A DNA stretch of 25,597 bases. Origin: a virus. Position numbers and translations under genes: made by a program. Positions 1,707 through 23,176 of the stretch are shown in pieces (the stretch's first letter is position 1; the number at the start of each line of letters is the position of its first letter). The stretch is from the IMG/VR virus record IMGVR_UViG_3300025282_000214, positions 1 to 25,597 of that record; one strand, written 5' to 3'. The notes below the pieces were generated by a model. It had not been told where the DNA came from and ran no database searches. It saw only the letters and a list, made by a program, of their open reading frames with translations.

Positions 1707-1929
1707 TAAAGAGATTGAATTCATAGGAAATGTAGGTGTTAATGTTTTTCGTTGTGAGATGTGTAGTAATATATCTAAATTTAAGTACTTAAAACGCCCT
1801 AATGAAGCTGTGGCAGCACTATTAACTGATAGAAAGTTTATGGACATCTGCAGGAAATGTGCTAAAAGAGAAAATGGGAGCAAAAATAAACGTGGATGGG
1901 AAAGGATACATGAAAAAGAAGCCAACTAG
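1699..1929 (+). CDS. Small zinc-ribbon-like protein (76 aa)
   Basis: CEMC at residues 19-22 and CRKC at 51-54 form a split zinc ribbon, with a Lys-rich loop and a helix (EAVAALLTDRKFMDI) between them. The C terminus is strongly basic (KRENGSKNKRGWERIHEK). The layout (short beta-type N terminus, knuckle, helix, knuckle, basic tail) suggests nucleic-acid contact, without direct evidence. It overlaps its neighbours by 8 nt upstream and about 20 nt downstream. Confidence 0.7.
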   Translation: MSDKEIEFIGNVGVNVFRCEMCSNISKFKYLKRPNEAVAALLTDRKFMDICRKCAKRENGSKNKRGWERIHEKEAN

Positions 1930-2164
1930 ACGCGAAATTTCAGATGTAATTGTATCAATGAATAATATATTTATGCAATTAGATAGGAGGATAAGAGGCT
2001 TAGAGTATGCAATTTCGGAATACTTTAAGTTTCAAAATACAGAGGATGATTTCGAGAAATATCTAAAGGAGAAAAAGGATGAAGAAGTCAAAGAAAGCGA
2101 TGCAAAAGCTCATGGAAGAGATATTCAGACAGGTTCAGACAACAAGAGAGGAGGGTCAGAATGA
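1910..2164 (+). CDS. Small charged helical protein (84 aa)
   Basis: The frame is open from 1859, but I prefer the ATG at 1910. It has a GGAAAGGA purine tract just upstream and reduces the overlap with the preceding gene from 71 to 20 nt. The product begins MKKKPTRREISDVIVSMNN and continues as a predicted helix (MQLDRRIRGLEYAISEYF), then a highly charged Lys/Glu/Asp tail. The helix resembles a short coiled-coil oligomerisation segment. No Cys, no membrane segment, no recognised family. It overlaps the next gene by 86 nt. Confidence 0.55.
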   Translation: MKKKPTRREISDVIVSMNNIFMQLDRRIRGLEYAISEYFKFQNTEDDFEKYLKEKKDEEVKESDAKAHGRDIQTGSDNKRGGSE

Positions 2165-2444
2165 GTATGCGCATGATGCAGATAATGCTTTTGCTAACTT
2201 TGAACGCATAGCAGAGCGTACTGGAACAACGAAAGAGAAGGTATTGCTAACGTATTTATTGAAACATATTGACGGTATCACCGCACACGTGAATGGCCAC
2301 ACTTCACAACGTGAAGACGTGCGGGGACGGATTAAAGATTGTATTGTTTACCTATGTCTATTTTGGGGCATGGTGGAATGTGCGGAGGAGCCAGACTGCC
2401 AGAAAGACAATACAAGTTTTACAACTATACCAGAATTCGAGTAG
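2079..2444 (+). CDS. Phage protein resembling DUF1599/DUF6378-type helical families (121 aa)
   Basis: A strong AAAGGAG lies just upstream of the ATG at 2079, which supports this start despite an 86-nt overlap. After a basic N terminus, residues 28-95 show an alpha-helical pattern: an E/Y-rich turn (GQNEYAHDADNAFANFERIA), then VLLTYLLKHIDGI, then GRIKDCIVYLCLFWGMV. This spacing of a YxxxxNFxxIA helix, a conserved KHxD and a terminal D-x5-L helix resembles phage families of the DUF1599/DUF6378 kind, linked in the literature to nucleotide modification or MazG-like housekeeping of nucleotides. The assignment is from memory of the pattern, not a search. It is the last gene of the plus-strand operon. 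Confidence 0.6.
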   Translation: MKKSKKAMQKLMEEIFRQVQTTREEGQNEYAHDADNAFANFERIAERTGTTKEKVLLTYLLKHIDGITAHVNGHTSQREDVRGRIKDCIVYLCLFWGMVECAEEPDCQKDNTSFTTIPEFE

Positions 2445-2545
2445 TTTATCCCTATAAAACGCTAATGTAGCGTCGTTATGAATAGGAAGGGAAGGCGTGA
2501 GTAATCGCGTCTTCCTTATTAGTTACTCAAAGTAACCGGGGGTTT
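2445..2545. terminator. Convergent intergenic region with hairpins, putative bidirectional terminator
   Basis: Two operons converge here: the plus-strand mini-gene operon stops at 2444 and the giant minus-strand gene stops at 2546. Three inverted repeats are visible: ACGCT/AGCGT (2459-2463 with 2469-2473), GGAAG/CTTCC (2490-2494 with 2511-2515, possibly extended by GCG/CGC at 2495-2497 and 2506-2508), and GTTAC/GTAAC (2522-2526 with 2532-2536). None is followed by a long uninterrupted T-run except the T5 at 2543-2547 on the plus strand. A termination role is therefore inferred mainly from position. Confidence 0.4.
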
Positions 2546-5500
2546 TTACAGAATTCCTCTAGGACCTGGAGCTTTCATTGTTTCAGGAATATCCTCAGTA
2601 ACCTGCCTATGTATTTGCCCAAGTGGGAAGCCGAACGCATTCTCCATAATTCTCATAGGATTCTCTACGAAATTGTTAGGACCAAAAGCACTACGGAATA
2701 CCCGTCCCATGGGGAATAGCGTCCAAACCTGATAATCAGCAAGTTTAGAGTAGTCATCATCAAGCCAGCCTCTCAGAGCTGCAGGTCCGAGACGTAAAAC
2801 AGGAGGTGTAACTAGCTGTAAAGGAGCAAGAGATGTGGGATAGGCCCCGAAGAATGCTCTATCCCGTTCTTTCTCATCTCCGAGAAGCCAACTTGAAGTA
2901 TCTTGTAACCAGTTCCAAGGAGCTGGAAGCTGATTATCAAACATGGAGTACATAAATGTGTTTGCTAGCGCGAATACAAAAAGGTCGATACCCATTGTAC
3001 GTTTATATTTCTCATAAGCCTCACTACCAGCTCTATATCCGTATATATTCATCTGTCTGTTTGTATCAAACCTGAAACGGGCAGCATTCCACGCCCAAAG
3101 CTGAAATCGACCCATAACCTTACCAAGGGCTGATCGTACGAATGCGGGCCTATTTGGAGCGTTATAAAGGAATTGTGTCGCCTTAACACCTCTTTTCGCC
3201 AATTCAATTAAGAATGGATGATTAGGGTCTTTAATAGCTCCCTGGAATTTCTTCCAATAGTGAACATAATGCGCCATGAATGAGTCTCTACGAAGCACTC
3301 TCTCTGGCCTACCCATAAATATGTCAGCAATCTTGTTGAATTTACTGCTTGTGAGTTTATGCTTACGATTTAATTCTCTGAGCCTGTGAAGGCTTTCTTT
3401 AGGGTCTTCAGAAATGAGTTTAGTCGCTTCTTCAATAAATTCTTTTGTTTTAGCAGACCGAAGATCAGGAGAAAGCCCAGCTTCATAAGTAAGGAACTCA
3501 GGAAGGACACCGTGATAATCAATAAACTTTTTAACATCTTCTAACGAATCCCATCGTATTGTCTCCTCTCCTATCTTGATTTCTGGTAAATTCTCTTTAA
3601 GCCACTTTGGATTACGAGCATCTTTTAAATTCTGAAAGCCTGTTGACTGTATTGTATGAGTAGTCCCTCCGAATAGATTAGCTATAATCGTTTTAGGGTG
3701 TGTCAATAGTGTAGCAAGTTCATACTTTGCTTCCAAATTAGACCAATGCCGTAATTGCTGTAATGTTATACCCTGAAGGTTTTCAGGAAGGTCTTTGTTT
3801 ACGAGTCCTAAGAATTTAGCAATACCATTAACTTTCTCTCGTACTTTATTGTCAGCCCACCACGCATAAGGAGTTCCTGCAATCTTCATTTTAGGGTCAT
3901 TTATCATACTATCTGGAACATTTACAGGATTTCCTATAGAATCATTAACATAGAGCTTATAAAAATTAGACCATCTCGTCATAAGGCTCTGTTTTGTATC
4001 TGGATTGTAGTCGATTTTATGCCAGCCCTTCTTTATTGCTTTCTGTTCAAATTCATGGATTAGATTACGAGACATAATTTGAGAGAATTGTTTATAATAT
4101 GTATTCGTTAGGTTTCTAATATACGCTTCAGGTACTGTTGAATCAGCAGCCCATCCTGGAATATGAGAATCTCTTGAGAACATGCTTCCCATTCTTTGAT
4201 TTGCGGAATACCATTTTAATATATCGCTTGTTTCACCAGCTTTTGTAGATATATTATCAAGGGTTTCATTCCATGCTTGCCACTCTAATAGCGCATCGCT
4301 ACCCCATTCCCCTGTAATCTGCTTATGCTTATAAGCAAGACGCTTTAATTGAATATCCTGCTCTTCAGGTGTAAGTGTAGACTTTCTTACATAATCAATA
4401 GCCTGTAATAGAGACTTCTCTGCAACCTTCTTATCGAAAAACATATGAGGCCAATAATTCTCATGAGGTATTCGACCAGTCTCATCTATCTCTAATTTCT
4501 CTAATTTCTGTCTTGCAAGCATGCCTTTCTCGCTAGTAGGAATCATCTCAATCATCATACTCTTAGCGATCTTTCTAAGCCCATCGATACCAACGTCCAT
4601 TTCGATTGGCTTACCATTCTCATAATTCTCTACCATTTCACGGATAAACTTCTTATAATCAATACGAGGATTTTTAAGGGTATCTTTATCATAATATCCC
4701 TCAATATATGGCTCTAAGGCATTCTCTTTCCCAGAGATTAGTGTATAAAAATTCTCAAATAGTCCTGTATAAACCTCATTAATCTTATCTACAATCTCTG
4801 CTCCAGTCATGGTTACACGATCTTTGCCAATGTTGACTGTAAATTTCTTATCCTTTAATTCTGCATAATTATGCTTTTTAACCGCACCTTTGTAAGCATC
4901 TTTATATATTTGTGCCTCAGCACGACGTAGGGGTTCAGCGATATATTCTTTTGACATGATATAGTCGCCAATAGGGAGCTCTCTCTCGCGTATTGCTATC
5001 TCTCTTAAAGCATCCCCTTCTGTAATGCTATCTACAAAAAGAAGGTCTATAGTAGATTTATGTATCCATTCTTCTGATTTCTTCACTGAAAAATCATTAG
5101 CACGATTAATCCAGTTCTGCATGATAGTCAGGTAGTTAGATGGCTCCATGATAGTGCCAACTTTACTCTTTCCATCTTTCGTTGTGAAGATTCCTTTCCG
5201 CTTTAATAGGATAATTTCGTCCTTCATAAGTTCCCTGGATATAGTCTCAGGGAAGAGGTAATAATAACGCTTTTGTAATTGAGGTGGCCCTTTAGACTTC
5301 CATATACGCTGCCATATAGTTCCTGTCTGCAAGTCTCTGAAGAAATTATTCATAGCCCTGAAGTCATCTGCATTCATGGCATTGATATCTTTTGATAATA
5401 AACCCCTTGCTATTTCATTAATATTCTGAGCAATTTTATTATTATATTGTTTTAAATGTCCTGTAAGCTCTGTAATGATTTTAGCCTGCTCTTTTGTTAG

Positions 5501-8500
5501 TGTTCCTTTTCTTAATCCCTCGAAATGAGACATATCTGCAATCTGAGAACCTTCGACTTTAGGGTCAATCTCTGGCTCACCCATAAAGCCGAATTGTTCC
5601 TGCTTTTCAACATCAATTCTCTTATTCTCACCAAGGTTCTTAGCAGCCTCTTTTTCCTTTTCAAGTTTAGAGGGTTCAGGAGCTTTCCACATTTTACCTG
5701 TTAATCGTGAAAATTCAAGCATAAATTGTTCTACAGACGTTGGGTGTACTGCTTTACTTGAGTAGCCAAGGCGTGAGAGAGATGTTCTTGATGCTTCCAT
5801 AACCATAGAACGGAAGATATCTCTTGTAAGAGGATTCCATCGCTTTTCCTTTGTAAGCTTTTCTTTTAATGCTTCCAGTGCCTTTAAGCTTCCTCTATTT
5901 AATGAACCAAGCATAAGATAATCAAAGAGACTCTTTTGCTTGGGACTTAAGGCGTCCTTATATTCTCTAATTGCAATATCAATTTGAGATTGATCCATCT
6001 CAGCAGAGATATCATCACCACGCTCTAAGCCACGCATTTGCTTATACCATTCAGCATTGTTTACATTAGCATCGATATCATTAACAAGCATATCAGCAAG
6101 TTCCTGAGCAATCTTGTCTCTTTCTGTTATAGGATTGGAGAATGTACCTTTACGACGTCTATTGCGAGCCATTAAATAGCTTTGAGACTTAAGCTGTTCT
6201 ACTTTCTTATGAATCTCAGGAAAAAGAGCAAATTCTTCAGGCGACATTAACGATGCCATATCAGCAACCTTACGAATAGTTATAATATCTGTCAAATCAT
6301 TAACAAGGAAATCCTCTCCTGTCTCTGCTATCTCCTCCAGGACTTTTAAACGCTCATCACGTGTCTTTGCTTCCTTCATTTCCTTATTGTATTCAGGAAG
6401 TTTCTTTACAAGCTCTTTCCATTTAGCGACATTCCCTGATATAGTCTCCCTTACTGTGTGATTCCAAAGCTTATTATCATTTATCACAGCTATCTGTTCA
6501 TTATAAGGAGTTTTTAGAGTAGCTCTGCCAAGGGCGTTTCTAAGGCTCTCCATGCCTTCATTGGATAAGATACCATTTGCCTGCTGATATACGAGTTTTA
6601 AAGCTTCTTTATTAGTACGAGCAAAGATATTATCACCCCAATTGACAGGCTGAAGTGTCTGAATCATTTTAGGAAGCAGAGTATTAAACTGCCTTTCTGA
6701 ATAAGTATATATTGACTTCCCTTTTTCCTTTATCTCAGGAATAGACCACTTACGACCTTCTGTCCAATTCCTTCCGAAATATGCAGAGTTCATATCAAAG
6801 AAGTCTCCTACAATACCATTGCGCAATTCCCATCCTTCAAGGTCAAAGATTGATTTCATCTTCTTATCAACGACCCATTTCTTTCCAACTCTTTTTTCAA
6901 TTTTTCCAACATTAAAATATGCTGTCCATAATTTCTTGAGAAACATATCTGAGCTTTTAAGCCCTAATTCATCCAATGGATCAGAAGTGAATGCTATTTC
7001 AGCTCTTGTAAGAGCTCTTTGATGCTTCTGCCATTTAGGATCGGTTTTAGCATTGTATGTGACTCTATACTCCTCCTGATCCTTTCCTCTGCCACGAGTA
7101 AATATAAACTGATCTGTTTGTGCAGCAAGTTTATCTTTCTTCGGAGTTTCTAATAGCGCAGCATAAGCAGAACGCATTACTTGAGCACTTGATACGGCTG
7201 CACTAAGCTGATTACGACCCTCTACAGCACGCTGAGATATCTCCACTCTCTGATGAGGAGACCATTGCCATGCAGTGGAGTTTTGTAATGCTGCTTCTTT
7301 TGGATTAAAGTCTGATGTTAATACATCCCTAAATGTTTTTCCCTGATCAGACCCAACTTCAACAGAAGCTCCTTTATTAGGAGTGATAGTCTTTCCATCC
7401 TCTGAAAGGTACTCATGTTTATTAGCCTTAAAGACATCCTTCCATGCTTTCTTCATTCCATGCTGTTCATCTCCGAAATATACAAAAGCTTCATCACCAT
7501 CTAAATCAGCACCCCCCATTGCTCTCATAGCACGTCCATGAAGAAGTATGCCGTGTCCCTTTCTACCAGAGAATCCTTTAAACTTCAATACTTGAGCTCC
7601 TGACATTGAATCCATAGGGACTCTGACAGCAATCACTTCAAAGACATCGTCTGCTTTCGCTTTATTAGACTTAGATAATCCATCGTATGCATCCCAGAGC
7701 TTCCCAAGTGTGGTATTTTTCATACCCTGAATCGAAGTGACAACTTCCATTTCCTGGAAGCCATTATCTAAGAAGAAGATATCATCTCTTGTTTCAAGCT
7801 CTTTTAGCCTTGGATTGACTCCATCAGCATCACGCATTAAGTACTCATCATAAGGACGCATAAATGTTAATGCGCTATTAGGCATTTTAGGTCGAGTTAC
7901 CTGATGTACTATCCAGTTACGCATTGTAGCCATTCTCCAGTCGCGTACATGCTTATGGAGATATATACCAAGGCCTGTGACATCTTCACCCTTATCACGT
8001 GCCTTTTTAATTACAGCCCTTCCTCTTTTCAGCATATTATCAGCAGCACCATTAAACTCTTGTAGCTCTGTTTTAGATTCCTGTGCTTCCCATGACTCTA
8101 ATTCGCCCTCCATAACCATCTGATCAATAGCTTCCATTTGCTGTTTAGTAATCTTGTCATAAGCGAGTTCAGAGAATCTGTTAAAGTCAGGCCCATTCAT
8201 TTTCGTCATAGCATCAAGAAGTTCTGAAACGCCTATCCTATCAACATTCTTCATAAGCTTTTTAAGCCGCGTCTCACTTGGTTTAATGAGATATTTAGCA
8301 AGCTCTTCGTTCCATTTAGTTTCACCAGCAAACCTATTCTTTATAACGGAATTATAAATATCATCTACAATCTTTCTCGTTGCAGGCTCAAAAGACGTTG
8401 GATTAAGTGATGTAAAAAGCTGCTTAACCCATACTTGATTTTTAAGCATATGTTCAGTAGCTGCAGTAGAGCCTCCTCCTCGAATATCAGAAGGATTCAT

Positions 8501-11500
8501 AAAGTAATCTACGCCATATTTCCTGGTTCCCTTTTGTTTAGCAGCAGTATCATATACTTTAAAATGGAGCCCCTCTTTCAACATATCAGCGCTTTGTTTA
8601 TCTCCAGCAGCATGAAACATAAACTTGCCCAGTAAAGCACCATGTTTAGGGTCTTTGCTGACAATAAAGGATTTATTTTGACCAGACGGCATATTGCCAA
8701 AGTCAGCATTTAACACATCAACAATATCATTCCTTACTATAATAGCTCCGTCTGTGCTCTCTTCCATACGACTATTAAGAGTATTAATATCAGAGTTTTT
8801 ATCTTTAAGCTCCTCAATAAGACGATATTTGTATTTACCATCAGCAAGGTCTACAACTCTGTCTGCTGCGAAAGCATCACTATGCTTGAAGGCACTTGTC
8901 ATATAAATCTGTAGACGCTTATTATAAGCAGTAGCACCCTTAATAAAGCCCTTTCCAGAGAGCTTCTTAATATTAGCTGGTGTAGCTTCAAGGCCATTTA
9001 AAGCAAGATCATAGCGAATATTGGAAGCATAGGCCCTCCTAAAGACTTCTCTGGCTTCTTTACGAGTCATTTGTCCATTACGAGGTTTAAGCATGCCATA
9101 TTTATTAGCATACGCTGTTTCAGCTAAATCATACTCTTTTGAAAATTTATTTCCCAGTAACGTCTTAATTTTCGGAATCTGGATGCTGTCTGTATCAGGA
9201 TGAAATTTAACAAAGTATATCCTATCCTTATCACCTGACCCCCCGAATGCATACATGTTATTTTCTCTCGCTGTGTATCCAAATATACGGCTTAATACTC
9301 TACCCCAGGCTGCTTCAGAGAGAGCCTTTTTAAGTTTAGGGCTACCTTTTTGTCTCTTAGGTAGGTGATTGGTACGATAACGGCTCAAATTTAGGTCTTT
9401 ATTACCATTCTTCGCTTTAACCGTTATATGATCCATAATAATCATAGCTGCTTCCTGTGGATCACCTCCAGCTTCACGAAATGCTTCTTCAATCAGCTTA
9501 ATAGGCTCCACCATATTCTTTGGTGTACCAGATTTGGTATATGGAGTGTGTGCAGGCATAAGCCCTATATCAACAACATTTCCTTTTTCAGTAGCAGAGA
9601 AGAACCTCACAGGCTCTCCAAGGTTCCTTCTTGTCATCCATTTGCGCATCTCTCCACGCGCTTCAGGGCTAAGCTCATAACCAAGCTCTTCTGAGACGGA
9701 TTTAGCCCATTTCTCAGACCGATTAACTTCACTGCCCCTATTAAGATAAGTTTTAATACTCTCTTGTAATGAATTGGCTAAATCAGCTTTAATTCCAGGC
9801 TGAAGCTCAACCTTGGCTCCCTGCCAAGCATCTTTCATGTGATTATTTACAAAGTTGACAGACTGTCTGCCTATATATCTCCGTAAGCGATTCCCTATAT
9901 CCTGCCCTTCATTCTCTAATTCTGGAGAGCCTTCAATATCTCGGAATAGCTCTTGCTGTTCTCCAGGTTGCTTGCTTTTAACTTCAGCAACGGTTTCTTC
10001 GCTTTCAATCTTTGGGTCAGCAGTAAGAGGCTTATCTTCTTTTGGCTTATTGATATTATCTACAAGAAGCTCTCTAATAGCCTCATATCCTCTAGTTCCC
10101 TTTACAACCTCCCTGGAGCCAATACCAGCGTATCTTGATGTTAGTTTGGGTATTCCATCCATAGGAACGAAATGATTAGCACTATAATCATATTTAAACC
10201 ACTGATCGTTAAGCTCTGAGAAGACATGAGTAGGCTTCCGCATATTAATAGCCATTTGAACGCCCCATGCGGTACCACCTTTAACAGAACGTGCACCTTT
10301 TTCTATAGGAGCAACTGCATAAACACCGTTTGCATATCTTATTACATGAAAGGTTCTTCGGAAAAGGTCAAGAGTATATTTAGGTAGTTTGCTAATATCT
10401 CTATCAAGAGACATTTGAGCGAGGGTTAAAGCTTCATTAGCATCACTAAGCTCTCTTTCTGAGAGAGTCCTCTTTTTGCCCTTTAAGCTTTTAGGCGTAC
10501 TCTGCTTCTTAAATACATAATGAACAAAAGGAACTCCCAACTCATTGGATATTTCTGCAAAGGCAGCATCAGCACCCTTAGTAGCACCTGATATACCATG
10601 ATGAAGTGTTGGATGAGGCTCCTCAAGGAGCTGCTCTTCCCCATCCTTAAATTTACCAGTAGTTTTAAATCCAGATGGAGCTTCTTCAAGCATTTCAGGA
10701 ATCTTATCTTCAAGTCCAAGCTCTTTAACAAATTCCCACTGCATAGCACGTTGCTGTGAAGTAGTGCCCTTTGTCTCATCTATTTGCTTACGAACAATAT
10801 TCTGTACTTCGGTAGCAGTCTCAGCCCATTCAGGCATTAATTCAGGATCAAACTTGACAGCAAACTCAGCATCCTTAGATGCTTTCTTCTCCATTTTCTT
10901 TATGAATTTATGGGCACCCTGCTTTGTCCATGGAAGCTCTTTACCACCGAAATATGCTCCCATAAGGTAATCATATACTTGTTCTGGAGTAGTAGCCCCT
11001 CTCATAGTAGATGGAAGCCCTTGAAGAAGTGAGCCTGAGAGCGCCTTAATAGCCGTTCCAGCAGCTTTGCTGTCGGTCTTAACAAGGTTCCCGATAGTCC
11101 TAAACGCTCCACCAAAAGCAGCACCATGTACGAAAGAATCCATCATAACATTAACACCTTCCTGCCATGAAGATACTGCTGATGCAACCCCTAAGTGGAA
11201 TGCACCCTCTGCTACATGCGCTATAGGGCCTGAAATAGCCGTTTTAGCAGCAAGTTGTGCTGCACCCGCCTGTGCCCTTGATGCGGTCTTTAAAGCGGGG
11301 GATATGAGCTTCCTAGCGCGTTTTGTAGCCGCATTAGCCGCAAGCATAGGAACTGAGTATTCACCTACAGCAGCTGTTTTACGTGCAGCATTAAGAAGCA
11401 TCCGTGACTTAGTAGCTAATCCAGCAGCACGAAGAGGTCCTGATAATATCCCAGGAGCAAATCCTGCTAAATGTCCTATATTACGAGCTACAGCTTCAAA

Positions 11501-11749
11501 TTCATTATCAGGAGCGTCACCTGAGCGTAGAGTGGTGAAGCCCTGGAAGAAGCCGTATCCAGCCTGTTTAACTGCATCTAATAAAGAAAAATCCCCTGTA
11601 TAAAAGGGTACTTGGTATGCTTCAGCATGAGCTTGAAGTTCGCCCTGCTGTTCTTCAGTAAGGAGATGAGCCCTTCCTTTATATTGCTCTAAATAACTCC
11701 TTGTCTGCTCTTCGGTAAATCTTGGTTGCCATCCTTCGGGTACTGGCAT
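2546..11749 (-). CDS. Giant virion protein with two-barrel (DPBB) RNA polymerase core and SLOG domain (3067 aa)
   Basis: The 3067-aa product (roughly 350 kDa) is translated from an ATG directly adjoining the upstream TAA, with an AGGAG. Visible parts in order: a hydrophobic Gly/Ala-rich N terminus (about 60-260); a SLOG nucleotide-binding domain (about 375-565); a candidate first polymerase barrel (999-1042: TDGA at 999-1002, Lys1026, GK at 1041-1042); and the second barrel with R1376-V-P1378 and the Mg-binding D1415-L-D1417-G-D1419. These align with RAP and NADFDGD of bacterial beta prime. About 1600 mostly helical residues follow, with a possible membrane segment near 2919-2940. Related fused polymerases are known in crAss-like phages (phi14:2 gp66, a virion enzyme injected with DNA) and in SP-beta (YonO). 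As the last gene after three ejection-type proteins, co-injection is likely. The far C-terminal half has no function I recognise. Confidence 0.85.
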   Translation of the reverse strand: MPVPEGWQPRFTEEQTRSYLEQYKGRAHLLTEEQQGELQAHAEAYQVPFYTGDFSLLDAVKQAGYGFFQGFTTLRSGDAPDNEFEAVARNIGHLAGFAPGILSGPLRAAGLATKSRMLLNAARKTAAVGEYSVPMLAANAATKRARKLISPALKTASRAQAGAAQLAAKTAISGPIAHVAEGAFHLGVASAVSSWQEGVNVMMDSFVHGAAFGGAFRTIGNLVKTDSKAAGTAIKALSGSLLQGLPSTMRGATTPEQVYDYLMGAYFGGKELPWTKQGAHKFIKKMEKKASKDAEFAVKFDPELMPEWAETATEVQNIVRKQIDETKGTTSQQRAMQWEFVKELGLEDKIPEMLEEAPSGFKTTGKFKDGEEQLLEEPHPTLHHGISGATKGADAAFAEISNELGVPFVHYVFKKQSTPKSLKGKKRTLSERELSDANEALTLAQMSLDRDISKLPKYTLDLFRRTFHVIRYANGVYAVAPIEKGARSVKGGTAWGVQMAINMRKPTHVFSELNDQWFKYDYSANHFVPMDGIPKLTSRYAGIGSREVVKGTRGYEAIRELLVDNINKPKEDKPLTADPKIESEETVAEVKSKQPGEQQELFRDIEGSPELENEGQDIGNRLRRYIGRQSVNFVNNHMKDAWQGAKVELQPGIKADLANSLQESIKTYLNRGSEVNRSEKWAKSVSEELGYELSPEARGEMRKWMTRRNLGEPVRFFSATEKGNVVDIGLMPAHTPYTKSGTPKNMVEPIKLIEEAFREAGGDPQEAAMIIMDHITVKAKNGNKDLNLSRYRTNHLPKRQKGSPKLKKALSEAAWGRVLSRIFGYTARENNMYAFGGSGDKDRIYFVKFHPDTDSIQIPKIKTLLGNKFSKEYDLAETAYANKYGMLKPRNGQMTRKEAREVFRRAYASNIRYDLALNGLEATPANIKKLSGKGFIKGATAYNKRLQIYMTSAFKHSDAFAADRVVDLADGKYKYRLIEELKDKNSDINTLNSRMEESTDGAIIVRNDIVDVLNADFGNMPSGQNKSFIVSKDPKHGALLGKFMFHAAGDKQSADMLKEGLHFKVYDTAAKQKGTRKYGVDYFMNPSDIRGGGSTAATEHMLKNQVWVKQLFTSLNPTSFEPATRKIVDDIYNSVIKNRFAGETKWNEELAKYLIKPSETRLKKLMKNVDRIGVSELLDAMTKMNGPDFNRFSELAYDKITKQQMEAIDQMVMEGELESWEAQESKTELQEFNGAADNMLKRGRAVIKKARDKGEDVTGLGIYLHKHVRDWRMATMRNWIVHQVTRPKMPNSALTFMRPYDEYLMRDADGVNPRLKELETRDDIFFLDNGFQEMEVVTSIQGMKNTTLGKLWDAYDGLSKSNKAKADDVFEVIAVRVPMDSMSGAQVLKFKGFSGRKGHGILLHGRAMRAMGGADLDGDEAFVYFGDEQHGMKKAWKDVFKANKHEYLSEDGKTITPNKGASVEVGSDQGKTFRDVLTSDFNPKEAALQNSTAWQWSPHQRVEISQRAVEGRNQLSAAVSSAQVMRSAYAALLETPKKDKLAAQTDQFIFTRGRGKDQEEYRVTYNAKTDPKWQKHQRALTRAEIAFTSDPLDELGLKSSDMFLKKLWTAYFNVGKIEKRVGKKWVVDKKMKSIFDLEGWELRNGIVGDFFDMNSAYFGRNWTEGRKWSIPEIKEKGKSIYTYSERQFNTLLPKMIQTLQPVNWGDNIFARTNKEALKLVYQQANGILSNEGMESLRNALGRATLKTPYNEQIAVINDNKLWNHTVRETISGNVAKWKELVKKLPEYNKEMKEAKTRDERLKVLEEIAETGEDFLVNDLTDIITIRKVADMASLMSPEEFALFPEIHKKVEQLKSQSYLMARNRRRKGTFSNPITERDKIAQELADMLVNDIDANVNNAEWYKQMRGLERGDDISAEMDQSQIDIAIREYKDALSPKQKSLFDYLMLGSLNRGSLKALEALKEKLTKEKRWNPLTRDIFRSMVMEASRTSLSRLGYSSKAVHPTSVEQFMLEFSRLTGKMWKAPEPSKLEKEKEAAKNLGENKRIDVEKQEQFGFMGEPEIDPKVEGSQIADMSHFEGLRKGTLTKEQAKIITELTGHLKQYNNKIAQNINEIARGLLSKDINAMNADDFRAMNNFFRDLQTGTIWQRIWKSKGPPQLQKRYYYLFPETISRELMKDEIILLKRKGIFTTKDGKSKVGTIMEPSNYLTIMQNWINRANDFSVKKSEEWIHKSTIDLLFVDSITEGDALREIAIRERELPIGDYIMSKEYIAEPLRRAEAQIYKDAYKGAVKKHNYAELKDKKFTVNIGKDRVTMTGAEIVDKINEVYTGLFENFYTLISGKENALEPYIEGYYDKDTLKNPRIDYKKFIREMVENYENGKPIEMDVGIDGLRKIAKSMMIEMIPTSEKGMLARQKLEKLEIDETGRIPHENYWPHMFFDKKVAEKSLLQAIDYVRKSTLTPEEQDIQLKRLAYKHKQITGEWGSDALLEWQAWNETLDNISTKAGETSDILKWYSANQRMGSMFSRDSHIPGWAADSTVPEAYIRNLTNTYYKQFSQIMSRNLIHEFEQKAIKKGWHKIDYNPDTKQSLMTRWSNFYKLYVNDSIGNPVNVPDSMINDPKMKIAGTPYAWWADNKVREKVNGIAKFLGLVNKDLPENLQGITLQQLRHWSNLEAKYELATLLTHPKTIIANLFGGTTHTIQSTGFQNLKDARNPKWLKENLPEIKIGEETIRWDSLEDVKKFIDYHGVLPEFLTYEAGLSPDLRSAKTKEFIEEATKLISEDPKESLHRLRELNRKHKLTSSKFNKIADIFMGRPERVLRRDSFMAHYVHYWKKFQGAIKDPNHPFLIELAKRGVKATQFLYNAPNRPAFVRSALGKVMGRFQLWAWNAARFRFDTNRQMNIYGYRAGSEAYEKYKRTMGIDLFVFALANTFMYSMFDNQLPAPWNWLQDTSSWLLGDEKERDRAFFGAYPTSLAPLQLVTPPVLRLGPAALRGWLDDDYSKLADYQVWTLFPMGRVFRSAFGPNNFVENPMRIMENAFGFPLGQIHRQVTEDIPETMKAPGPRGIL
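7460..7642 (-). other. Second double-psi beta-barrel with catalytic DxDGD of the RNA polymerase
   Basis: Residues about 1370-1430 of the giant protein. The stretch reads VIAVRVP, then KGHGILLHGRAM, then GGADLDGDEAFVYF. R1376 to D1415 is 39 residues; in E. coli beta prime the equivalent R425 to D460 is 35. The triad D1415, D1417, D1419 should bind the catalytic Mg2+. The preceding VxxRxP strand and His/Gly turn also match the beta-prime barrel, so this is not a chance DxDGD. Confidence 0.85.
8600..8797 (-). other. Candidate first double-psi beta-barrel (beta-like) of the RNA polymerase
   Basis: Residues about 985-1050 of the giant protein. The segment TDGAIIVRNDIVDVL is followed by GQNKSFIVSKD and GALLGKFMFH. 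Two-barrel polymerases carry a beta-like barrel upstream of the DxDGD barrel, with two conserved lysines contacting the nucleotide or transcript end. K1026 and K1042 are the best candidates, with K1032 and K1035 possible. The placement rests on order and motif feel and is less certain than the second barrel. Confidence 0.5.
10055..10627 (-). other. SLOG-family nucleotide-binding domain inside the giant protein
   Basis: Residues about 375-565 of the giant protein. The glycine loop is GISGATKGAD (385-394), followed by AFAEISNELGVPFVHY, then a helix, then VYAVAPIE, KGGTAWGVQMAI (490-501), KPTHVF (505-510) and AGIGSRE (541-547). The order GGA-GAD loop, VYAV strand, GGTAW-VQMA, KPxxVF and AGIGxRE matches stand-alone Rossmann-like SLOG proteins (DprA/YpsA/LOG superfamily) as I remember them. 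Members bind nucleotides or nucleotide-derived signals; some cleave nucleoside monophosphates. The substrate here is unknown. Confidence 0.75.
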
Positions 11750-13036
11750 TTAATCTCCTAACGCTGATTGTAACTCTTCATCTCCTGAGAATAATTTCGC
11801 TATATCATAAGCTGTCCAAGTAGCTCCTGCTAGACCTAATGCTGTAGAGACACCTTCTGGCAATGCTATACCGGCAGCACTCAATCCAAGCTTAGTCGCA
11901 ATGGCTGGATATTTCTTCTTTAATATGCCCATAACGCTCTTCATAACTTTAGGGTCTTTAAGTTTTTTCATTATCTGCCATGTTCCAATACCACCAGTAA
12001 CCTGACCTAAAGTTTCACTACCAAGTGCCTCTCCAGCTGCTCCCCCGAGATTGATACCTAGCATGTAGGGTAGCGCTTGCTTTCCAGCTTTAGATGCTTT
12101 TCCCGTAATCTTACTAAGTGTTGTGCCTTTTTTCGCAGTTTTTCTAGCCAATTCGTCGGCCTGTGCCAGAATACTCTTCTTTGTAACCTTTCCATATTTT
12201 TTAGTCCACTCTTTATTTGTTAATCCACCATCTCTAACATGTGCTGCATCTGATTTAACAAGCTTTTTAGCTTCATCAGTTAAATTAGCTAATTGACGCT
12301 TATGTAATACTGCTCCAGTAATAGCTCCTCCGCCTACTACAAGATTCGTTCCCCTTAATTTGCCTGTATAAGGATCAATAAATATACTTGCACCCCTTTC
12401 TAAAAGCCCTGGAGATTGCGCTTTAGGGCTATAAGAGAAGCTCCTAAGAGTGGTTTTACCATCAGGAGCTACTACCTGCTCCATTCCCCCTCCTCCTAAT
12501 TGCATATAGTTTTGATATAATTGGTTAGCATTATAAGTCTTATTCATATAGTCATTGATATCATCTTCATCCCACATGGGTCTGGCAGCCTTAACCCTTG
12601 CTCTTAAGCTTTCAAACATTCCAATCTTTTGGTTAAGGTTCTTAATAGCGCTTATTTTATATTGATCTTGAAATACGGTAAAATCAGCCCCCATATCATC
12701 AGAATTCTGACCCTTCTTATATTTATCCCATGCACTCTGCATATCAGGTAGCGATTCGCCAAAAGAGGCTGTCGGATTAGTTAAAAGTGATTCTGTATTA
12801 AAAGCTTCACTAACGCTACTCATTCTATTTATAGAGCGCTGTGCTTTTTCATATAAGCCTTTTTGATAATCAACTGCTGCTTGTTGCATATCAAGTTGCC
12901 TGTCAGCACGCTCGCTTGCAGCTCGAGAATTTTTCATATCTTGAAACTGTTGAAAATAGCCCATTATCTCATCAGGTCCAAAATCTGAACTAGTATCAAT
13001 TACCATATTAGGGTTAGTATATATTTTTGCTCCCAT
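11750..13036 (-). CDS. Ejection-type internal virion protein (428 aa)
   Basis: Starts at an ATG at 13036 preceded by AGGAGAAAGC; its TAA directly adjoins the ATG of the giant gene. The N-terminal half is polar and helical with Gln-rich coiled-coil character (QFQDMKNSRAASERADRQL), ending near a GGGG turn around residue 180. The C-terminal half alternates Lys-rich stretches with Gly/Ala-rich hydrophobic helices (PYMLGINLGGAAGEALG; AAGIALPEGVSTALGLAG). Proteins of this composition between nozzle and injected enzyme genes act as ejection proteins in podoviruses (compare P22 gp7/gp20/gp16), but no direct homology is claimed. Its first 12 residues, MGAKIYTNPNMV, are repeated at the end of the 273-aa protein upstream. 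Confidence 0.7.
   Translation of the reverse strand: MGAKIYTNPNMVIDTSSDFGPDEIMGYFQQFQDMKNSRAASERADRQLDMQQAAVDYQKGLYEKAQRSINRMSSVSEAFNTESLLTNPTASFGESLPDMQSAWDKYKKGQNSDDMGADFTVFQDQYKISAIKNLNQKIGMFESLRARVKAARPMWDEDDINDYMNKTYNANQLYQNYMQLGGGGMEQVVAPDGKTTLRSFSYSPKAQSPGLLERGASIFIDPYTGKLRGTNLVVGGGAITGAVLHKRQLANLTDEAKKLVKSDAAHVRDGGLTNKEWTKKYGKVTKKSILAQADELARKTAKKGTTLSKITGKASKAGKQALPYMLGINLGGAAGEALGSETLGQVTGGIGTWQIMKKLKDPKVMKSVMGILKKKYPAIATKLGLSAAGIALPEGVSTALGLAGATWTAYDIAKLFSGDEELQSALGD
13001..13036 (-). repeat. 36-bp direct repeat, copy 1 (start of the 428-aa gene)
   Basis: Identical over 36 bp to 14274-14309 and in the same orientation. Read on the minus strand it encodes MGAKIYTNPNMV in frame in both genes. 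This copy holds the genuine ATG of the 428-aa gene. Confidence 0.95.
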
Positions 13037-13044
13037 GCTTTCTC

Positions 13045-14259
13045 CTATGAGTTAATAGCTGTGTCCCAGGACACCATATTATTCCAAAACTCCTGGTTAT
13101 ATTCTTCTTGTAAATCAGCTGTGCCGCTAGCTAAATCATCTACAGCCTGTTCTGTATCAATTTTCTGTTCTTTCATCTGCATTTCCCTATCTGTTGTACC
13201 GGCATTAACAGACCGTTCAGCTTCTTCTATAGCTTGCTTCTTCTCAAAATCTGCTGCAAAATCTCCTGAACCAGCAAATCCAGCTTGGGATGTTTTTTGT
13301 TGAGATTGGGTTAGCATACCAAATAGTCCGCTTGACATCTGAGAGCCAACAGCTTTCTGATTCATAATATCTTGCGTAAAGGCTTTATCTTCCTGTAGCC
13401 CAAGCCTTTCAATATCTCTAGAATAATTATCTTTTAACTCGTCTTGGCCCCTAGTATCATATGGATCAAGATAATCCATTATATCGTTTGCATTAGATTC
13501 AGTCTGTTTTTCACCTGCCGCGGTACTCATAGCGGCAATATTTTCGTCTGAAAATAATCCCTTATTTGCCATTCCAAGGCCCCTATTTGCCATTCCAAGG
13601 CCCCTTTTCGCAAATTCCAAACTTTTTTGCTTATTTGCGGCTGCATCTTCTGGTGTGGTAACTAAACCAGATTGTTGTGTCACGAAATTCTCAAATTCAG
13701 GGTTTAAGCCTGAAGCCCATCCTCCTGATTTAATTTTTTCAGTATCATCTACGTTTTCATCAGCTGTCCAAATACCAGCTATATTCTCCTGCTCGTATTT
13801 ACGTCTAAATTTTTCAAACTGTGTGTGTCTAGCCTTGGCCTCTGCCTTTGCTCTATCACGAGCTCTGGATTTTTTAGTTTGCCATATACCCCACTTACCT
13901 TGCGATGGGCGCCATGTTCCATATTCCCGAAGTCCAGTCTTAGGATTAGTAGTACCACTACCTATACTTTGTACCCAAGCTTCTCCAAGAGGACCAAGAG
14001 CATCAATAGCATTGGCTTCAGTAGTATTTACATGGGCTACCTCTCCGCCCACTCTACGTAACTCACTGTCACCTCTACGACCCTTACGAGCTACACTCCT
14101 TACACCAGCACCTTGCTTAATATCGGTCCCTGGGATATGACTCCCAGATGGCGGGTTTCCTCGTTCATTATCGTTTGAGGAACGCGTTCTTGGACCAGAA
14201 GGATTGGAATGTAGACTTCCACGTAATTGATTTGCTAATAATAATAAGTTAACTGCCAT
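13045..14259 (-). CDS. Putative internal virion protein lying between direct repeats (404 aa)
   Basis: Starts at the ATG at 14259, sharing a base with the TAA of the upstream 273-aa gene (TAATG). The N terminus has a short hydrophobic stretch (MAVNLLLLANQL), then a Ser/Pro/Arg-rich, strongly basic linker to about residue 80. A Lys/Arg/Ala helix (KSRARDRAKAEAKARH) follows, then Gln/Asn/Met-rich helices to the end. A seven-residue duplication (RGLGMAN twice, then MANKGLF) comes from a 21-bp tandem repeat. The whole gene lies inside a 1273-bp unit bounded by two identical 36-bp repeats, which suggests insertion or duplication. A structural or ejection role is inferred from position only. Confidence 0.65.
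   Translation of the reverse strand: MAVNLLLLANQLRGSLHSNPSGPRTRSSNDNERGNPPSGSHIPGTDIKQGAGVRSVARKGRRGDSELRRVGGEVAHVNTTEANAIDALGPLGEAWVQSIGSGTTNPKTGLREYGTWRPSQGKWGIWQTKKSRARDRAKAEAKARHTQFEKFRRKYEQENIAGIWTADENVDDTEKIKSGGWASGLNPEFENFVTQQSGLVTTPEDAAANKQKSLEFAKRGLGMANRGLGMANKGLFSDENIAAMSTAAGEKQTESNANDIMDYLDPYDTRGQDELKDNYSRDIERLGLQEDKAFTQDIMNQKAVGSQMSSGLFGMLTQSQQKTSQAGFAGSGDFAADFEKKQAIEEAERSVNAGTTDREMQMKEQKIDTEQAVDDLASGTADLQEEYNQEFWNNMVSWDTAINS
13564..13605 (-). repeat. 21-bp perfect tandem duplication
   Basis: Two adjacent identical 21-bp units (13564-13584 and 13585-13605) inside the 404-aa gene, giving a repeated RGLGMAN. The length is a multiple of three, so the frame is kept. Degenerate partial units flank it (FAKRGL before, MANKGLF after). 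Confidence 0.9.
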
Positions 14260-15080
14260 TATCTATAATCCCTTACCATATTAGGGTTAGTATATATTTT
14301 TGCTCCCATTTCATCTTTATATTTTCCTAAAGAAGGGCTCCATTCTCTACCGTCCTCACTCATTTCCCAATCACCAGGATCATCTAAGCCAGGAAGATTT
14401 ATACCAAAGGCACCCATATCTAGTAAACTTGATGGGATAGTTTCACCGCCCATTACATTTCCAGATAGACCTTCAGGCAGTCCTCCTTTATCTATTCCTG
14501 CTACAATATCTGTAATATCAAAACCACCTGCACCACCTCCAGCACTTGGAGCAGCTCCACCTAAAATATCTCCAACCATTCCCTTGGTTTGAGCCTTTGG
14601 TGCTAATCCTAAATAACCTTCTGCCCCACCTTTTAGCCCACCTAAAAAGCCGGCACCACCTGCAGAGCCAGCCTTAAATCCAGCACCTAACTTTTGCATT
14701 TGTCCGGCTCCCATAAAACTACTTAATGCAGCTTTACCTACATTACTAAATTCTTGTGACGCTATTTGGCTAGTAATATTACCGCGAGTTTTCTTTCTAA
14801 ACTTGCCGCTTAACAAGTCTTCTTGACTAACCCCTGAAGTAGCGCCTCCTACCTTACTACCTAGCAAAGCTCCTGCGCCACTTGCGGCAGCCAATAACAA
14901 GGGAGAAGCTGCCCCACCTGTAATAACAGTTAAAGCTAAAGCACCAAGTAATCCACCTATTCCAGCACCACCAGATTTAGCAGAAGCATATCGTGATGAT
15001 TTTCTTGCAAGAGCGGAATCTTCATTCTGTACATCTCTTTCGAGAAGATTCATTCCACCTGCGCCTGTTTTAATTCCCAT
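14259..15080 (-). CDS. Gly/Ala-rich hydrophobic ejection-type protein (273 aa)
   Basis: The ATG at 15080 is preceded by AAAGGAAT. Residues 38-75 form one long Gly/Ala/Leu-rich hydrophobic region (GGLLGALALTVITGG) that could span or insert into a membrane. The middle is Gly-rich and low in complexity, and the C terminus is acidic. This composition, next to other ejection-type genes, suits a protein released from the virion to help form the DNA channel, as known for podoviral internal proteins. The last 16 residues are odd: MGAKIYTNPNMV is a perfect copy of the start of the 428-aa protein, followed by only RDYR and stop. The gene may therefore have once been fused in frame to the 428-aa gene. 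Confidence 0.7.
   Translation of the reverse strand: MGIKTGAGGMNLLERDVQNEDSALARKSSRYASAKSGGAGIGGLLGALALTVITGGAASPLLLAAASGAGALLGSKVGGATSGVSQEDLLSGKFRKKTRGNITSQIASQEFSNVGKAALSSFMGAGQMQKLGAGFKAGSAGGAGFLGGLKGGAEGYLGLAPKAQTKGMVGDILGGAAPSAGGGAGGFDITDIVAGIDKGGLPEGLSGNVMGGETIPSSLLDMGAFGINLPGLDDPGDWEMSEDGREWSPSLGKYKDEMGAKIYTNPNMVRDYR
14274..14309 (-). repeat. 36-bp direct repeat, copy 2 (end of the 273-aa gene)
   Basis: Same orientation and identical over 36 bp to 13001-13036, 1273 bp apart. It encodes residues 258-269 of the 273-aa product. No Shine-Dalgarno precedes the internal ATG here, unlike the other copy. Confidence 0.95.
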
Positions 15081-20380: not shown

Positions 20381-21063
20381 TAGAAGTCTGTAGGCCTTAT
20401 AACTACTGAACCCGAAGATATATAATTAGCTCTTGCATTTTTCTTACCATCACGGACAAGAGCTTGGTACTTTCCTTCAAATATCTGAGATGCCTGTGGA
20501 TTGAACTCTTCTACTCCCGCCTTTAAATAAGCATCAGATATTACCTTATAAACAAGGGCATCATGAAATTGATTTGGTATTCCGGAAACTTCTGTTAAAT
20601 CTGTTGTAAAATCAGTTGCTTGAGCTATAGCATATATACGTATTTCTTTTACTTCGGAAATAGACTGATAATCAGAAGTTTTACCCTCCCTTGTAACGTT
20701 ATTTGTTGCTTTTTCTACTATAGCAAGCCTATCATTGCTAATATACCAATATCTTTCGTCTGAAGTGGTAGAAGGAGCGCCAAGTCCGCTAGCCCCATCA
20801 AATTCATCATCATCAATAATTGGATTACCAATAAGTCTCGATATATCAACATCGTTAATTTGCACCCTAGTAATCTTCAGGATTTGAGAATCAAGTGTAT
20901 AATAACGCTTTCCAGCGGCAGAAGTCTGAGTATAAGTGGTTTTAATAAGCTCCGTCTTAGCACAATAATCATCTTGTGCGCGATTAAGAGCGAGACGTAT
21001 TTCAGTCTCGCCCATCGCAGAATGATGCTGTTGAATTAGCTCAATCAGTTGCTTCTGAGTCAT
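20380..21063 (-). CDS. Head-tail adaptor protein, SU10-adaptor-like (227 aa)
   Basis: The N-terminal helix (KQLIELIQQHHSAMGETEIR) is followed by RYYTLDSQILKITRVQIND. This matches the connector pattern in which a helical bundle leads into a strand YYxLP---KI-RVxI-G. The C terminus has the characteristic IPNQFHDALVYKVISDAYLK helix, followed by ASQIFEGKYQALVRDGKK. These are the hallmarks of podoviral adaptor proteins that link the portal to the nozzle (SU10 adaptor, P22 gp4 role). The ATG at 21063 lies inside the end of the fibre gene. Its place upstream of the nozzle gene supports the call. Confidence 0.7.
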   Translation of the reverse strand: MTQKQLIELIQQHHSAMGETEIRLALNRAQDDYCAKTELIKTTYTQTSAAGKRYYTLDSQILKITRVQINDVDISRLIGNPIIDDDEFDGASGLGAPSTTSDERYWYISNDRLAIVEKATNNVTREGKTSDYQSISEVKEIRIYAIAQATDFTTDLTEVSGIPNQFHDALVYKVISDAYLKAGVEEFNPQASQIFEGKYQALVRDGKKNARANYISSGSVVIRPTDF

Positions 21064-23176
21064 TTGATATTCCTATTTTAAGCAGTAGATCATCTTTAGT
21101 ATCTCCAGAGTTATACTCTATAGAGCTGTTATCCATATACGCTTTTAACTGCTCTTTTGTCCATCCGCCTGATGGTTCTCCTCCTGGGAAGCTTCCTGAG
21201 CTATCATCTCCTCCACTTCCTTCTTCGGAATCATCTGAAGCATCACTTCCAGAGCTCCCTGAGCCTTGGTTGCCATCGTCTGATGATGGTTCGCTAGACG
21301 CTGATTCTCCGCCACTTGAGCTTGAAGAGTCACTGCTACTTCCTTCAGCTCCTCCACTGTCTTCCCCTGCGGATTCGCTAGAGGGCTCTCCTGCGTTGTT
21401 GTTTCCTTGGTTTCCTTGGTCATTGTTACTGTCTCCCGTTTGGTTATTGTTTTCTAAGGCTGTTACCTTAGCTGATAATTCTTGTATTGCTTTTACTAGC
21501 ATAGCCACTATTGGCTCATATCTAATCATTTTTAAGTCTGTATAATCAGTACCATTCTTTCTGATAGCCCTTTTCTTTATGATTTTGGGAAATACTGTTT
21601 CTATTTCATCAGCAATAAAACCAATACGTTTTGCTTCAGCTGCATCCTTGCCTTTATAATTAAAGTTTCTAACTTTTAGCTTATTTATATCTTCAAGTTT
21701 TGCACTTGCATCTACTATATTTTCCTTCAATCTTACATCTGAAATGTGGTCTGTTTCGTCTGCATGGATACCACCGTCACTATATACAGCAAAGTTGTCA
21801 CTGTCGTTATCTTGATAAAGAATTGCCCTATCATCAGTAATTGTATCATTTGTAAAGTCGCCTCCAGAAAACATGATTAAGATACCTTCTGGATTAACAC
21901 CATCTACATTTTGAAACTTTGCAGCAAACTCATTACCTGTAGAAGTAACAACGTCAAGTGGATAGGATGGTGCATTCGTCCCAATACCGACATTGCCATC
22001 TTGAAGAATTGTGAGCACCTCATCAGAACCATCATTTATAAGTTGTAAAACATTGACACCTCCACTAGCATGCCCTGCTGTATCATTTATAAGCTTCCAT
22101 TCTGCGTCACCATTTGCCCCTAACTGAAGGGAAGCATTCTGTCCATTTGCAGCATCTATAAAAACATTGCAGGAAGCAGAAGCAGCAGAAGAAACTTCTA
22201 AATTCTCAGCAGGTGAATCAGTCCCAATACCGACCTTGCCATCATATTGCTGAAACAATCCTGTATTTGAACTACCATCATAAGTTTTAAACCTTAAATC
22301 TGTGTTAGCCCCACTAGCTGCAGTATTTCTTTCAGCTATTATTGAAGCAGTTTCGCCCGTACCCTGTCCACATGGGTGGAAACCTATTTTGCATCCTGCA
22401 CCATTTTCAACTACTGCATCATTACCTATAGAAAAGCAAAGTTCAACAGCTCCAGCATCTGAACCATGAGCTTGTAAAATATCAGAAGCACCACTATGCA
22501 TAGTTAATGAATCATTCCTAACATCCAATAAAGCTTCTGGTGCAGTAATCCCAATACCGACATTGCCAGCACTATCAATAACTAATCTATCGTCAACCCC
22601 ATCTGTCCTAATGGAGAAATGGTTATCACTATGGTCGTATACGAGTGCTCCAGCGTTTGCAGCCGAATCTCTAAAAAGTATCATAATAACCCCAGTATCA
22701 GTATCCTCCAATCGTATGCTTGGATTAGCAGATTTTATGTGCAATTGATTGTCTGGTGAAGTAGTCCCAATACCGACATTGCCAGCACCGTTATATCCAA
22801 CAGTCATAATTGCAGTACCATCATTCTTAAAATCAACACAATTACCAGATCCATCATTATTTACAACTAATGCATTTTGGTTATCAAGGGCGTTCGAGTT
22901 ATTAAAATAAACCATTGCAGCATTAGTACTTCCTTCTGCCAAATCTCTTTCAACTCTTAATGTAGAACCCGTGGTTGTGCCAACTGCTGAAACATCTAAC
23001 CTAGCTGCTGGCGAATCAGTCCCAATACCGACTCTATCCTGACTTATTGCAAGAGCAGAATCAGTATCTGCGCTATCCTGTATGTATGAAGCATTTACAC
23101 CTGCTCCCATTGTATCACTATTCATTCTCAATAATTTTAAGAATGTGCTTGCTATTGTACTTCCGCTTAATGCCAT
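21041..23176 (-). CDS. Trimeric tail fibre with self-cleaving Peptidase_S74 chaperone (711 aa)
   Basis: Five repeats of the N/R-VGIGT-xxP-xxxLxV type (first at residue 49) separate beta-rich segments, a common layout for trimeric phage fibres. The Peptidase_S74 intramolecular chaperone starts at S479-DVRL-K484-ENI, with the Ser-Lys dyad five residues apart as in endosialidase fibres, and continues through IGFIADEIETVFP to a heptad (AMLVKAIQELSAKV). Family knowledge predicts trimerisation and then autocleavage before S479. Unusually, a Ser/Gly/Asp-rich stretch (about 580-672) and a small WTKEQLKAYMDNSSI helix unit follow the chaperone. The gene contains a second plausible frame in that tail. 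It is preceded by a small gap and an AAGGAG. Confidence 0.85.
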   Translation of the reverse strand: MALSGSTIASTFLKLLRMNSDTMGAGVNASYIQDSADTDSALAISQDRVGIGTDSPAARLDVSAVGTTTGSTLRVERDLAEGSTNAAMVYFNNSNALDNQNALVVNNDGSGNCVDFKNDGTAIMTVGYNGAGNVGIGTTSPDNQLHIKSANPSIRLEDTDTGVIMILFRDSAANAGALVYDHSDNHFSIRTDGVDDRLVIDSAGNVGIGITAPEALLDVRNDSLTMHSGASDILQAHGSDAGAVELCFSIGNDAVVENGAGCKIGFHPCGQGTGETASIIAERNTAASGANTDLRFKTYDGSSNTGLFQQYDGKVGIGTDSPAENLEVSSAASASCNVFIDAANGQNASLQLGANGDAEWKLINDTAGHASGGVNVLQLINDGSDEVLTILQDGNVGIGTNAPSYPLDVVTSTGNEFAAKFQNVDGVNPEGILIMFSGGDFTNDTITDDRAILYQDNDSDNFAVYSDGGIHADETDHISDVRLKENIVDASAKLEDINKLKVRNFNYKGKDAAEAKRIGFIADEIETVFPKIIKKRAIRKNGTDYTDLKMIRYEPIVAMLVKAIQELSAKVTALENNNQTGDSNNDQGNQGNNNAGEPSSESAGEDSGGAEGSSSDSSSSSGGESASSEPSSDDGNQGSGSSGSDASDDSEEGSGGDDSSGSFPGGEPSGGWTKEQLKAYMDNSSIEYNSGDTKDDLLLKIGISNDSEATD
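21145..21423 (-). CDS. Putative overprinted coiled-coil protein inside fibre gene (92 aa)
   Basis: An alternative frame, shifted by +1, runs 92 codons inside the Ser/Gly-rich tail of the fibre gene. Its ATG at 21423 follows ACGGGAGAC with good spacing. The product looks like a natural protein: after a Thr/Lys/Glu start it gives KTVEELKEVAVTLQAQVAEN, then QGALEVMLQMIPKKEVEEM, with regular heptad hydrophobics and few low-complexity runs. The fibre frame over the same bases is almost only S, G, D, E and N. The local base composition is visibly more GC-rich than around it. Against this, third positions in the 92-codon frame favour G, unlike neighbouring genes. It could be a real overlapping gene, or a shadow. 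Confidence 0.45.
   Translation of the reverse strand: MTKETKETTTQESPLANPQGKTVEELKEVAVTLQAQVAENQRLANHHQTMATKAQGALEVMLQMIPKKEVEEMIAQEASQEENHQADGQKSS
21437..21742 (-). other. Peptidase_S74 intramolecular chaperone domain of the fibre
   Basis: Residues 479-580 of the fibre: SDVRLKENI with catalytic S479 and K484, then RIGFIADEIETVFP and YEPIVAMLVKAIQEL. The order matches the S74 family, which folds the trimer and then cuts itself off N-terminal to the serine. Confidence 0.85.
22223..23032 (-). repeat. VGIGT-encoding repeats in the fibre gene
   Basis: The 12-bp plus-strand string cccaataccgac occurs at 22223-22234, 22550-22561, 22766-22777 and 23021-23032, and once more at 21980-21991. Each encodes VGIG of the fibre repeat. 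Spacing between copies varies, so these are protein-level repeats with conserved codons, not a DNA array. Confidence 0.8.

Follow-up and report, generated by a model that had tools for sequence, protein, structure and literature searches.

Introduction

Virion RNA polymerases (vRNAPs) fused to large proteins are already known in crAss-like and N4-like phages. In the crAss-like phage phi14:2, which has a 100-kb genome, gp66 (PDB 6VR4) is a large late structural protein of 2180 aa that contains a single-chain two-barrel (double-psi beta-barrel, DPBB) polymerase core with an R-x-P motif followed by DxDxD, in this case DFDID. In the long-tailed phage P23-45, which has a second polymerase, a two-barrel polymerase forms the N-terminal part of the tape measure protein gp96, a giant virion protein of 5002 aa that is proposed to transcribe during DNA entry (PMC10770324). 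The gp50 vRNAP of N4, about 3500 aa long, has a T7-type single-subunit catalytic domain in its middle and leaves its short-tailed phage particle together with two further ejection proteins (PMC12633501). Two barrels in one chain also occur in the stand-alone enzymes QDE-1, RDR2 and YonO, which are not virion proteins.

Here we analyzed a stretch of virus DNA of 25,597 nt (25.6 kb; IMG/VR record IMGVR_UViG_3300025282_000214), hereafter the window, that encodes a protein of 3067 aa. As in gp66, a predicted single-chain two-barrel core lies within a large late structural protein and shows R-x-P followed by DxDxD, which is DLDGD in the window protein and DLDID in some of its family; in contrast to gp66, the family has proteins of about 3100 aa, genomes of 50-55 kb and a P22-type portal. 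The protein would resemble gp96 as a giant virion protein with a two-barrel polymerase, but the polymerase is central rather than N-terminal, and its C-terminal partner resembles ejection proteins, whereas gp96 is a tape measure. The body plan is that of N4 gp50, with the polymerase in the middle, while the core is two-barrel rather than T7-type, which would make it a convergent solution. YonO can be likened to the window protein by description only. The best explanation of the locus, and in our judgment a probable one, is a virion-type two-barrel RNA polymerase fused to an ejection protein and forming a new family.

Results

A giant open reading frame carries conserved polymerase motifs

A sequence-only reading of the window had reported a 3067-aa open reading frame (ORF) with a two-barrel polymerase core at positions 2546-11749, leaving its strand unstated. 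The ORF was borne out and lies on the minus strand, with residue r of the protein at 11749-3(r-1) downwards, and the giant gene was intact in 53/53 complete relatives checked, where it encodes 2516-3436 aa. The following features were assigned:

2546..11749, minus strand: giant protein gene, 3067 aa, ORF open throughout
10925..11749, minus strand: N-terminal conserved segment, residues 1-275 (GxFHLGVASxVSSW, TTPEQVYxYxxGAYFG; conservation)
10229..10600, minus strand: SLOG/DprA-like nucleotide-binding domain, residues 384-507 (phrog_768, E=3.9e-8 for the N-terminal segment)
6632..9259, minus strand: predicted two-barrel RNA polymerase core, residues about 831-1706 (AlphaFold2 model; Foldseek and VIA matches)
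8477..8836, minus strand: predicted beta-like barrel (DPBB-B) region, residues about 972-1091 (alignment, model, VIA)
7478..7639, minus strand: predicted beta-prime-like barrel (DPBB-A) region, residues about 1371-1424, from RVPMDSMSGAQVL to GGADLDGDEAFVYF
7493..7507, minus strand: DLDGD, residues 1415-1419, predicted Mg2+-binding catalytic aspartates
2549..6139, minus strand: C-terminal 1197 residues (1871-3067), likely ejection/virion domain (AlphaFold2, BFVD and PDB likeness)

Read off the translation, the motifs stand where they had been claimed, with VIAVRVP from residue 1372, DLDGD at 1415-1419 and the whole block RVPMDSMSG...GGADLDGDEAF at residues 1376-1421. A second conserved block, which is lysine-rich, covers residues 1000-1109 and includes DGAIIVRND at about 1000 and DGAIIVRNDIVDVLNADFG...KSFIV...GALLGK at about 1000-1042, again as first placed. 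An alignment of the core comprising 58 rows (residues 831-1870, about 28-39% identity to the window protein) revealed invariant D1000, G1001, K1026, K1042, K1071, K1109, R1376, P1378, D1380 and S1383. The first five of these lie in the DPBB-B region, the exact borders of which were inferred from predicted strands, and K1109 lies just after it; the four invariant lysines are candidate catalytic residues of the beta-like barrel.

The catalytic aspartates are retained across the family

Searching IMG/VR with the core as a single sequence returned nothing, and scanning its DNA with the degenerate pattern GGAD(x)DGDxxF yielded at least 119 stretches. About 114 of these encode the same giant protein, as judged by eye from the translated context, and phmmer E-values for the scanned stretches were near 0 among the matches listed. 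The RxPxDxxSG block, which was not selected for, is present in nearly all of these giant-protein stretches, and the common block RVPMDSxSGAxxLxFxGFTGxxGHGxLxHxRxMxALGGADLDGD reaches far past the scanned pattern. As selection by motif introduces a bias, relatives were re-collected using C-terminal peptides; 317 stretches encode relatives found in this way, 80 were kept, and 60 were testable in that the ORF extends at least 2400 bases further upstream. All three catalytic aspartates (D-x-D-x-D) are present in 60/60 of these motif-blind relatives, as DxDGD in 53, DLDAD in three, DLDID in three and DHDID in one. As judged from these sequences, the putative catalytic motif is more than chance.

This retention bears on the idea that the polymerase has degenerated, lost catalysis and been retained as a structural scaffold for ejection. 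Constraints from virion structure are probable, and a barrel fold alone is no proof of activity. However, loss of the aspartates would be expected in an inactive enzyme, and their presence in every testable relative at about 30-40% identity, along with the invariant lysines and RxP, makes such a scaffold very improbable.

Five stretches from the motif scan (L028, L071, L098, L106 and L116) show another context; these other phage contigs encode proteins that contain GGADFDGD or GGADVDGD and reach lengths of about 930 aa. L071, the only one of the five scanned against Pfam, matches the RdRP family PF05183 (positions 2339-5131, 4e-24) and is by this match predicted to be a two-barrel polymerase from a different family; the motif thus seems specific to polymerases of the two-barrel type. 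Separately, a 3539-aa ORF (L097) represents a distant member with 22% identity in the C-terminal part, in which the catalytic block is recognisable and the rest of the core is little alike.

The core is predicted to adopt a two-barrel polymerase fold

Residues 831-1870 were modeled with AlphaFold2 on the basis of the 58 relatives, giving a core model with a pLDDT of 88 and a pTM of 0.84. When the model was compared to the PDB with Foldseek, 6VR4 was the sole match below 1e-3 (E 1e-7), followed in the ranking by P74-26 gp62 and P23-45 gp64. With VIA, the closest folds were QDE-1 (Z 18.1, 485 residues aligned) and plant RDR2 (Z 17.0), and P74-26 gp62 (Z 14.0) and 6VR4 (Z 11.8, 743 residues across the whole core model) also matched. 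The largest subunits of multisubunit polymerases rank below these four and match only model residues about 390 to 870, the beta-prime-like half.

The two-barrel core proposed from the sequence thus stood up to the structure prediction on which it had been staked. In the model, the alignments to known enzymes span both barrels, and DLDGD (model residues 585-589) is flanked by predicted strands E570-573 and E590-594 and falls in the half that matches beta-prime-type subunits. By predicted fold and active site, the 3067-aa protein is a member of the two-barrel (DPBB) RNA polymerase superfamily, and residues about 831-1706 would form a single-chain DPBB polymerase in which the beta-like barrel precedes the beta-prime-like barrel that bears DLDGD.

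That QDE-1 and RDR2 are the best structural matches could be taken to indicate an RNA-dependent RNA polymerase of the QDE-1/RDR type, acting on host or phage RNA. Yet the same searches also bring up phi14:2 gp66 and the P23-45 enzymes, PMC10770324 unites single-chain enzymes of phages and eukaryotic RNAi enzymes in one clade, and the context, which in relatives includes TerL and portal genes, is that of a tailed dsDNA phage; we regard RNA-dependent activity as the least probable of the readings considered.

Searches of BFVD also matched two unnamed proteins, A0A516LW39 and A0A516LAI4, that are close relatives with 26-28% identity in the core. Five others (A0A516L9L2, A0A516M3R5, A0A516LUR1, A0A516LSI3 and A0A516M7V2) match the core fold with E-values of 1e-15 to 1e-10 at only 10-12% identity, and hint at further unnamed two-barrel families.

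Sequence comparison separates the family from known polymerases

Sequence searches of the PDB, Pfam, PHROGs and NCBIfam with the core or the whole protein retrieved no polymerase family; PF05183 (Pfam RdRP) had no match in the window protein and PF04998 none in the window. The likeness to gp66 holds for structure and does not extend to sequence profiles: comparing the gp66 profile to the 58-row profile with hhalign gave a probability of 0.4%, on which membership in the gp66 family was rejected. Profile comparison with P23-45 gp64 and gp96 showed no full-length similarity, only the short DxDGD block being alike (hhalign probability 4.6% for gp96 on the isolated block), and membership in the gp96 family was rejected on this basis. 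Membership in the N4 vRNAP family was rejected as well, the core being two-barrel instead and the T7-type polymerase family PF00940 not being detected in 18 long relatives (T7 control positive). In a local profile match, the catalytic block resembled that of an RdRP-family phage protein (E 5.6e-4; reversed control 0.28).

Text searches found no published description of this polymerase family, which the survey of viral two-barrel polymerases that accompanies PMC10770324 may already list. Fused two-barrel phage polymerases had been thought shorter than the window protein, and the combination of its size and flanks undescribed. The first statement is not general, since gp96 is larger, and the argument from size is weakened accordingly; this particular family and the way its flanks are combined do appear undescribed in the sources searched.

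The flanking regions suggest a virion-type protein

Residues 1-275 are conserved and matched no known family. The SLOG-like domain lies in the variable N-terminal part of the protein, where phrog_768 was matched by 8/47 relatives and Pfam cpYpsA by one relative at 6.5e-22.

The C-terminal 1197 residues are mostly helical (AlphaFold2 pLDDT 70) and are best conserved at 2676-2990. In BFVD, besides two family members, proteins with a large polyvalent protein associated domain lead (E 1e-6), and internal virion proteins rank lower (E about 1e-3). In the PDB, structures of the T7 gp16 type hold ranks 1 and 6, namely the phiM1 ejectosome (8VB2, Z 4.8, 219 residues, sub-threshold) and the T7 core proteins (9JYY, Z 3.9), with Z-values that fall below the tool's noise guide for helical folds of Z 8-13; Pfam gave no ejection-protein match for this region. 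Two libraries and the gene position nonetheless agree, which is no more than suggestive of a relation between the C-terminal third and ejection proteins. In T7, gp16 comes last among the virion genes, as the giant gene does here.

Polyvalent proteins combine several unrelated activities in one injected chain and contain named LPD or metallopeptidase Pfam domains (PMC5512222). Among 38 C-terminal and 47 N-terminal members of the family, no Pfam LPD was listed, and Peptidase_Mx1 gave one weak match (0.014). In the window protein, a single chain is predicted to combine a SLOG-like domain, a two-barrel polymerase and a virion-type region.

The giant gene is the last gene of the late operon

All large genes above position 2546 in the window are on the minus strand and encode a tail fibre, structural and internal virion proteins, a metallophosphoesterase, three Gly/Ala-rich proteins and, last, the giant ORF, which is faced by small genes on the plus strand:

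2079..2444, plus strand: small conserved gene facing the giant gene, marking the end of the late operon (phmmer)
11750..15080, minus strand: three Gly/Ala-rich genes directly upstream of the giant gene (428, 404 and 273 aa; position)
15755-18136, minus strand: virion gene, phrog_511 internal virion protein
18644-19423, minus strand: metallophosphoesterase
20380-21063, minus strand: structural protein, phrog_399/437
21041..23176, minus strand: tail fibre-like protein

Six long relatives of 50-55 kb have their genes arranged alike, in a replication arm and a late arm, and the giant gene is the last of the late operon in 6/6. The facing gene at 2079-2444 recurs in 4/6 (phmmer E 1e-37 to 1e-42) and the 20380-21063 protein in 6/6. 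The three upstream proteins matched no family, and their function was therefore deduced from position: they are likely internal or ejection proteins, and similar-sized genes precede the giant gene in 6/6 long relatives. Their hydropathy shows one borderline membrane segment in the window and occasional ones in relatives, so membrane insertion is without firm support.

In the relative scanned in detail, genes for TerL, a P22-type portal and the major head protein open the late arm, and the replication arm carries those for a DnaB-like helicase/primase, an AAA protein and paired ThiF and JAB proteins. The P22-type portal model matches 36/40 long records, and TerL shows about 27% identity to varied non-crAss phages, the best among the matches listed. 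The polymerase core is single-copy in 39/40 long records, the fortieth being cut by a contig end. One contig has both ends inside the giant gene and is therefore probably a complete 52.9-kb genome.

Several further observations were made on these genomes. The metallophosphoesterase among the virion genes recurs in 5/6 long relatives (1e-89 to 1e-126), and in phi14:2, too, such a gene lies close to the structural genes. A single ORF encodes the 227-aa structural protein (phrog_399) in the window, and two nearby ORFs, of 87-91 and about 125-155 aa, correspond to it in 6/6 long relatives. The early arm of L128 (record G037) encodes, at 3560-4246 and 4218-5069, a ThiF/E1-like protein (8.8e-15) and an overlapping JAB-protease-like protein (weak, 7.6e-5, under the cut-off), which may form a phage-borne pair for ubiquitin-like modification. 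At 7677-8537, the same arm encodes a radical-SAM member of the spore photoproduct lyase family (3e-23).

A real two-barrel polymerase might also stay out of the particle and serve as a late non-virion enzyme for late genes or replication priming, on the model of P23-45 gp64, which acts inside the cell on early and middle genes. The fold is equally close to the non-virion P74-26 gp62, and a role in priming is conceivable because a search of 18 long relatives revealed no family-A DNA polymerase (T7 control positive). Against this stand the closing position of the giant gene in the structural operon of all long relatives, its fusion to a region resembling virion ejection proteins, and a place in the late block and a protein scale that match known virion enzymes. 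We consider a non-packaged enzyme unlikely.

Relatives are abundant in metagenomes, which hold hundreds of them. By tblastn, 50,697 phage records contained no relative, with at most chance-level fibre matches, and plasmids contained none. A search of 84,980 GTDB genomes gave 593 pattern matches, none of them a relative, and thus no prophage or host clue.

Discussion

A virion-type two-barrel polymerase fused to an ejection protein is favored by the computed fold, by conservation of the active site, by the place of the gene and its occurrence once per record, and by the lack of a detected T7-type polymerase. Encoding in the late/structural operon is a trait of virion RNA polymerases, and it is found here. 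The sequence-only reading had gone on to propose an enzyme that is packaged and transcribes early genes after injection. Its virion/ejection element gains from the late-operon position in 6/6 relatives and from the weak C-terminal structural link, while packaging, injection, DNA-dependent activity and coupling to DNA entry are put forward by analogy with N4 gp50 (PMC12633501), P23-45 gp96 (PMC10770324) and phi14:2 gp66. We counted against this explanation the weakness of the ejection link, the missing full-length profile link to polymerases and the absence of a shared promoter-like motif, words of this kind upstream of genes in six long relatives being no more frequent than in shuffled sequence.

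By these analogies, the giant protein would be made late, as the structural operon's final product, enter the head together with the proteins encoded just upstream, and be ejected along with the phage DNA. Its C-terminal part may help form or anchor the ejection apparatus, and its polymerase part would transcribe the first phage genes entering the cell. A more tentative extension, which we rate as possible but doubtful, is an N4-like strategy reached by convergence, with an ejection-channel protein and the only detected RNA polymerase in one chain whose movement may pull the genome in. If true, the first transcripts would be made while polymerase movement draws in the genome, in an abundant uncultured lineage without an isolate.

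Taken together, these findings extend the few known single-chain two-barrel polymerases by a large family that appears to be unnamed, and locate such a polymerase within an ejection-type protein of phages with small genomes (50-55 kb). This suggests that injected giant polymerases arose more than once, from unrelated polymerase folds: T7-type in N4, and two-barrel in the window family, crAss-like phages and P23-45. With hundreds of diverse sequences, the family is well populated for study of the deep history of transcription enzymes, and it provides a concrete candidate enzyme for transcription coupled to genome entry.
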